From Salinivirgaceae bacterium (GTDB lineage: Bacteria; Bacteroidota; Bacteroidia; Bacteroidales; SZUA-534): a stretch of 38,261 nt of DNA. Positions 1 to 33,647 of the stretch are shown piece after piece; position 1 is the first letter of the stretch, and each line of letters starts with the position of its first letter. The stretch is from positions 1 to 38,261 of the forward strand of contig JAQICC010000357.1 in NCBI GenBank assembly GCA_027858735.1, read 5' to 3'. Both the position numbers and the translations under genes were made by a program. Under the pieces are notes generated by a model. It worked only from the letters and a program-made list of their open reading frames with translations. It was not told the origin of the DNA and did no database searches.

Positions 1-113
1 TTCACATTTTGAGTAGCCTGCCCCGATTATTTCGGGGAAACGAAAAGTATGAAAACCTTACAAGACCTCAGTCGATTGAGCAGATTTGCGATAGCGAATC
101 GCTCAATTTGGGT
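1..113 (-). repeat. Copy 1 (truncated by window edge) of the ~213-235 bp terminal-inverted-repeat element
   Basis: Reverse complement ACCCAAATTGAGCGATTCGCTATCGCAAATCTGCTCAATCGACTGAGG...CCCCGAAATAATCGGGGCAGGCTACTCAAAATGTGAA matches 38143..38255 with one visible mismatch. Confidence 0.95.
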
Positions 114-4098: not shown

Positions 4099-4112
4099 TG
4101 TATTTGTCTTTT

Positions 4113-4347
4113 ACCCAAATTGAGCGATTCGCTATCGCAAATCTGCTCAATCGACTGAGGACTTGTAAGATATTAACATATTTCGTTTCCCCGAAATAAT
4201 CGGGGCAGGCTACTCAAAATGTGAACACCAACAATTCCTAGGTCAGCCTGTCCCGTACCGGAGGTCGGGAGGATTATACCTAAGTAAAGCGTCTTTTCAC
4301 TTCCCCGAATTATCGGGGCCGGCTATTCAAATCGCTCAACTTAGGTT
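4113..4347 (+). repeat. Copy 2 of the TIR element (full length, ~235 bp)
   Basis: Starts ACCCAAATTGAGCGATTCG, ends AATCGCTCAACTTAGGTTT (imperfect TIR). Carries CCCCGA-AATAA-TCGGGG, CCCG...CGGG and an extra CCCCGAATTATCGGGG hairpin absent from copy 3. Confidence 0.9.
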
Positions 4348-4378
4348 TTACTGAAAGGTTGCAATAAAAAATTCCTAA

Positions 4379-32923: not shown

Positions 32924-33433
32924 AGAAATTAGTATTTATGGTTATATGTTATGAATTGTTTTCCAAAATAAATAACTCCAATTAAACTCCATGTTGTGGT
33001 TTATTTCCCATAATTGCTGGGTGCTATTTTAACTTTTGCAGAGCCACCGCTGCGTATTTAAAAAAGTGTTTTAAACCGTGAAATTTGTTCAATTTGCTCT
33101 GTTTATTGTTATGTCGGTTTCGTACTACTATCTCGATATAATGTTTCTTTTTTACTCAACAATAGAATTCCCCATAGAGGGAATTGAAATTATGTCATGC
33201 TAACCTTGTCTTCCTTTTTAAACCAATCTCAATTTGAATGGTTGTTCTGATTTTTTTAGAAAGGAGTAGCTTAAAATTAAGATAATAATTTTACTAAAAG
33301 AAAGGTTTTGCTGCAATTGCATGAATAAATAGTGTATTTGTTTATATTTATTGGTCTCATTAGTAGTTAAAACTATGTACTTTAGTGCATCTCGCTTTAG
33401 CTTCTAAAAATTTTACGTGATATTAGAGCTTAG

Positions 33434-33647
33434 ACCCCAATTGAGCGATTCGCTATCGCAAATCTGCTCAATCGACTGAGGTCTTGTAAGGTTTTTATAC
33501 TTTTCGTTTCCCCGAAATAATCTGGGCAGGCTACTCAAAATGTGAAAACCAACAATTCCTAGGTCAGCCTGTCCCGTACCGGAGGTCGGGAGGGTTATAC
33601 CTAAGTAAAGCGACTCTTCACTTTGTTCGAATCGCTCAACTTAGGTT
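33434..33647 (+). repeat. Copy 3 of the TIR element (full, ~213 bp), abutting the TonB receptor stop codon
   Basis: CCCCAATTGAGCGATTCGC...CCCCGAAATAATCTGGGCAGGCTACTCAAAATGTGAAAACC...GAATCGCTCAACTTAGGTT; near-identical to copies 2 and 4. Confidence 0.92.

Follow-up and report, generated by a model that had tools for sequence, protein, structure and literature searches.

The structured repeats dispersed through a 38,261-nt Salinivirgaceae contig are very probably a MITE family that owes its movement to a transposase of the IS1380 family supplied in trans: an IS of that family has matching ends and a matching 5-bp TNNNA target duplication. The element as such belongs to an ordinary class of mobile parasites; its interest is raised by an internal hairpin in which pairing has survived sequence change across several bacterial families.

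The window, by which we mean the whole 38,261-nt stretch analysed here, is the complete contig G000:C173 of a draft genome (5.99 Mb, 452 contigs). Both of its ends fall within repeat copies and are thus assembly breaks inside the repeat. All four copies listed by an earlier note on this DNA are present, with near-identical shared parts, although the ends given there were off by about one base. The corrected features are as follows.

1–112, reverse strand: MITE copy 1, left part only; the contig begins inside the copy
95–112: left TIR of copy 1
113–117: flank of copy 1, TAATA (TATTA read towards the element), fitting TNNNA
4109–4113, forward strand: left target duplication of copy 2, TTTTA
4114–4345, forward strand: MITE copy 2, complete, 232 bp, with TIRs CCCAAATTGAGCGATTCG / CCTAAGTTGAGCGATT
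4189–4211, reverse strand: nested small hairpin AGCCTGCCCCGATTATTTCGGGG in the central hairpin loop; absent from compact copies (e.g. L064, L127)
4245–4270, forward strand: nested small hairpin AGCCTGTCCCGTACCGGAGGTCGGGA between the central and right hairpins; absent from compact copies
4303–4325, reverse strand: third nested small hairpin CCCCGAATTATCGGGGCCGGCTA in the right hairpin loop; in copy 2, not in copy 3
4346–4350, forward strand: right target duplication of copy 2, TTTTA, identical to the left one
33435–33645, forward strand: MITE copy 3, 211 bp, with flanks TTAGA / TTAAA
38144–38261, forward strand: MITE copy 4, left part only; the contig stops inside the copy; left flank TTATA, fitting TNNNA

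Two further observations concern the surroundings of these copies. Another dispersed palindromic repeat, TTAAAACTATGYACTTTAGTGCATCTCGCTTTAGCTTCTA (window ~33366–33405; also L024, L027 and L066), repeatedly adjoins MITE copies. Between 33650 and 37930 the window carries consecutive genes for a TonB-dependent receptor, a FecR-like anti-sigma factor and an ECF sigma factor (assigned by eye), an arrangement typical of Bacteroidota and in no way unusual.

The true element ends read CC(C/T)AA(A/G)TTGAGCGATTCG..., with CC..GG as the outermost bases, and carry the terminal inverted repeats expected of a MITE (CCCAAATTGAGCGATTCG / CCTAAGTTGAGCGATTCG). The imperfect TIRs proposed earlier were thereby confirmed, and a comparison of ends among copies left the family standing. 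Immediately outside CC...GG, 15 of the 19 copies compared in related genomes (G002, G004, G009, G058 and G032) had identical left and right 5-mers (shuffle mean 1.5), whereas 3-, 4- and 6-mers at the same boundary did not match. The earlier note had called for a search for target duplications, and these relatives supply one of fixed length, 5 bp. The target itself is a strict TNNNA, with T at position −5 and A at position −1 each present in 50 of 51 copies. An alternative reading of the relatives' flanks as 3-bp duplications was replaced: the bases beside the 3-bp match are an invariant A and T, which places the element ends at CC..GG and makes the duplication 5 bp long. For almost every genomic copy compared, the flanks are unrelated.

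To locate a source of transposase, we scanned the genome contigs for the end motif and then identified IS1380 genes by a PF13701 profile search and a protein search. This yielded the autonomous transposase with matching TIRs that the earlier note had proposed to look for. An intact IS of 1741 bp in another Bacteroidales genome (G071:C94; L182:136-1876) has CCTAAATTGAGCGATT at both ends, is flanked by TTGAA/TTGAA, a 5-bp duplication fitting TNNNA, and carries a 462-aa ORF that scores 181.5 bits against NF033539 transpos_IS1380 (cut-off 180). Between the MITE and this IS, 15–16 of the 18 terminal bases are common, and the 16-mer is exact within the Y/R positions. The similarity is limited to the ends, and a check on whether the repeat belongs to a larger coding element did not overturn its separate status.

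The same end adjoins IS1380 transposase genes or remnants at seven further loci: L158, G002:C193, G001:C76, two places in G186, G254 (1 mismatch) and G345:C872. G002, from the family of the window, retains a broken IS1380 copy with one intact end, and the window's own genome has a decayed IS1380 transposase at C441 beside an end with 3 mismatches. In the scan for the exact end motif, two of the settings outside the Salinivirgaceae had a transposase beside the end, the Cyclobacteriaceae contig L158 and the Gemmatimonadetes contigs L155 and L169. Matches of 19-mers across phyla (Acidobacteria, Planctomycetota and others) occurred in about the number expected by chance and were excluded unless beside an IS1380 transposase. 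No intact IS1380 with these ends was found in the own genome or in G004, G009, G032, G058, G360 and G376, all of them MITE carriers and drafts that may miss a multicopy IS. Two other parent families were tried and rejected. The IS982 profile PF13612, searched owing to the ACC ends and the apparent 3-bp duplication, had no matches in six genomes. PF13936 for IS30 returned one IS30 fragment in the own genome without a matching end, the other matches being LacI-type or other regulators.

From these shared ends and targets we infer that an IS1380 transposase would act on the MITE in trans. In the proposed mechanism, a separate IS sharing these ends would supply the transposase. This enzyme would recognise CCYAARTTGAGCGATT at both ends of the element, which would be excised or copied and joined into TNNNA sites with a 5-bp stagger, leaving a 5-bp direct repeat around each insertion. 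The internal hairpins would travel as cargo and may fold as single-stranded DNA or RNA.

Published IS1380-family elements (e.g. ISPsp9, IS1247 and ISPa33a) measure 1.56–1.72 kb, with 16–21 bp inverted repeats and 4–5 bp duplications (PMC4133298, PMC3281130). The system described here resembles them in its 16-bp shared end starting with CC, its 5-bp TNNNA target and its 1741-bp partner IS; unlike them, the repeat itself has no transposase and spans 43–234 bp. In being multicopy, of this length and without a transposase gene it conforms to a generic MITE, and a protein of more than ~77 aa is impossible at such a size.

Three hairpins make up the basic layout. In compact copies (L064, L127; 164 bp between the outer CC and GG), the left hairpin is CCCAAATTGAGCGATTCG..CTGCTCAAT, the central one CGACTGAGG..TTGTAAGGTTTTC..GAAAACCAACAATTCCTAGGTCG, followed by GGGTTATA, and the right one CCTAAGTAAAGCG..CGAATCGCTCAACTTAGG. 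Solo left and right hairpins also exist (L065, L066, L070), as do short two-hairpin forms (L062, L063). The standard 211-bp copy adds two small hairpins and window copy 2 (232 bp) three. The internal hairpins described in the earlier note are therefore real, including the extra CCCCGAATTATCGGGG hairpin of copy 2 (4303–4318) that copy 3 lacks. Its view that the family varies in modules held as to the variation, while the modules themselves are members of a second, small hairpin family that inserted into the MITE later. This independent family, AGCCTGCCCCGA(N)TCGGGG, has 111 exact matches genome-wide in several loop variants, is found beyond the element as well, there with other loops, and occupies different positions in the elements of G058 and G032. 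It is a candidate for REP/RAYT-type movement.

The 15-bp end motif, allowing at most 1 mismatch, matched the genome 226 times against 0 for the reversed control, a difference far beyond chance that implies at least about a hundred copies. At least 40 genomic copies could be aligned, a lower bound because 40 of the 229 candidates were scored. Many contigs of the source genome start or stop ~100 bp from an end motif. Among own-genome copies of standard length (212–214 bp), the flanking 5-mers matched in only 4 of 25; in the other 21 they disagreed, with the T..A rule kept on each side. This is the pattern expected if the two flanks stem from different insertions, through assembly chimerism or recombination. 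Most full-length copies in the draft genome, including window copy 3, are thus recombinant or misassembled. The two flanks of copy 3, TTAGA and TTAAA, each fit TNNNA but mismatch one another, and mark a recombinant or chimeric join. Sequence to the left and right of such mismatched copies, copy 3 among them, may not be truly neighbouring in the genome.

The same ends and three-part layout recur in G002, G004 and G009, from the same family as the source, and in G058, G032, G345, G360, G376 and probably G320, from other families of the order. Within the own genome, 24 of 25 copies in a single cluster lie 0.8–3.1% from their consensus, whereas copies from different genomes differ by about 30%, so each lineage has amplified its own version.

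Only about 1 in 60 copies falls inside a called gene, though ~82% of the sequence is coding, and such intergenic placement is the pattern expected from purifying selection against insertions in genes. The median distance of copies is 80 bp to gene 3' ends and 223 bp to 5' ends; genes were called by a simple ORF script, which makes individual distances rough. With respect to flanking genes, 30 copies sit in co-directional, 10 in divergent and 6 in convergent contexts (background 79/18/20), and no preference for convergent gene pairs was found in these contexts.

The earlier note had also raised a possible RNA-level function. Single-strand folding was stronger than in dinucleotide shuffles (z = −4.5 for copy 2 as DNA and −5.6 for copy 3 as RNA). 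In an alignment of 22 divergent copies drawn from 8 genomes, 28 cells of the central and right hairpins had changed on both sides yet still paired, against a shuffle mean of 10.9 (0 of 500 shuffles as high); the covariation score of these hairpins was 0.110 versus 0.054, with all slid controls and shuffles lower. Covarying columns include 68/166 (AU:7 CG:5 GC:2) and 78/154 (CG:7 UA:5 GC:4). The copies in this set are related, so that shuffles overstate the significance, and the compensated pairs go back to a small number of changes between lineages. This covariation supports a maintained fold, and in the central hairpin it is compatible with a putative function at the RNA level.

One reading of these data adds to the transposition mechanism: the IS1380-moved MITE would have a three-hairpin core kept by selection, either as RNA, for instance an element of transcript ends or stability, or as folded single-stranded DNA. 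We regard this as possible but doubtful. The doubly changed pairs and the covariation above shuffles and slides speak for it, as does the closer spacing of copies to gene 3' ends than to 5' ends. Against these stand the kinship of the copies with its few lineage changes, the mere 7 pairs that RNAalifold returned on the gapped alignment, an orientation relative to genes close to background, and Rfam, which gave 0 matches within the window at the gathering score. Gene conversion between inverted repeats could, moreover, preserve the complementarity of the arms without any function. We offer as a tentative suggestion that an activity of the folded RNA or single-stranded DNA accounts for the retention of the multi-hairpin core, with its compensatory changes, in several Bacteroidales families; such an activity could benefit the element itself (e.g. 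in transposition) or its host (e.g. at the 3' ends of transcripts).

The earlier note had left the choice between a MITE and a REP-like family undecided. The MITE half is upheld by the TIRs, the 5-bp TNNNA duplication and the IS1380-family partner with the same ends; the REP-like half is not. A REP/BIME-like repeat moved by a RAYT (a Y1 HUH transposase), with hairpin ends cut and joined as single strands, would fit the facts that each element end is a hairpin and that solo hairpins occur (L065, L066, L070), and in G000:C338 a distance of 12 bp separates a copy from the end of a RAYT gene, whose NF047646 score of 79.2 bits falls slightly short of the cut-off (80). HUH transposases, however, are not known to make 5-bp target duplications, which are present around this element. 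RAYT orthologs in G002, G011 and G009 and a second RAYT of the own genome (C214/C290) have another hairpin family, GGAC/GGAACTC..GAG, on their flanks, and relatives of that family also lie upstream of the C338 RAYT gene (by eye). In addition, G004, G058, G032 and G376 have the MITE without a close RAYT (the close-RAYT search covered G004, G058 and G032). On account of the target duplication and the different hairpins around the orthologs, RAYT was ruled out as mover of the main element, and we consider this reading very improbable. Least likely of all, to the point of being negligible, is the reading in which recombination, and not transposition, has dispersed a structured regulatory RNA or an attC-like recombination site: it would suit the stable conserved structure and high copy number but is refuted by the target duplications, and the transposase with matching ends and the unrelated flanks of almost every copy also contradict it.

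Several RAYT-related features of these genomes were recorded alongside. The RAYT orthologs with their own cognate hairpins GGAC/GGAACTC..GAG constitute a REPtron in this Bacteroidales family (L089 G000:C338; L090 G002:C231; L091 G011; L093 G009; L107/L111 G000:C214/C290). A RAYT pseudogene at G000:C277:1979-2713 (L115, L117) appears to be interrupted by a MITE copy. The REP-like small hairpin family AGCCTGCCCCGA..TCGGGG also occurs near a broken Y1 gene at G000:C41, and G031 has multiple copies of a matching GCCTGYCCCG hairpin.

To our knowledge, the Correia, ERIC and bcr1-3 elements are unrelated in sequence and transposase to the IS1380-type MITE described here. RNA effects have been reported for those elements, whereas an RNA role of this one is putative. 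The Correia elements of Neisseria, ERIC of Yersinia and bcr1-3 of B. cereus are MITE-like repeats of intergenic regions; they are transcribed and capable of altering mRNA (PMC10969869, PMC3446304). REPtrons share with our element the hairpin units, the intergenic location, the high copy number and a RAYT adjoining one copy, but differ in two respects: our element is flanked by a target duplication, and the hairpins belonging to the RAYT are unlike those of the element. Also comparable is MITECca01 of Cardinium, a high-copy, mainly intergenic MITE of ~240 bp in a Bacteroidota genome, likewise with a named IS family as mover (PMC9769881). Its parent, however, is IS982 rather than IS1380, and it was reported from a single strain without structural conservation across families. 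Neither IS1380 nor Bacteroidetes features in a review of prokaryotic MITEs from 2024 (PMC10969869), and openly accessible papers naming both IS1380 and MITE do not seem to contain an earlier description of an IS1380-derived MITE. The kind of element, a MITE with IS1380-type ends and targets, is known; the new points are IS1380 as parent and the conserved core.

This high-copy repeat fragments Bacteroidales draft genomes, and the transposase family behind it can now be named. Contigs joined through identical copies of the element can be false joins and call for caution. If the covarying core is functional, the element would allow selection on the non-coding interior of a MITE to be put to the test.
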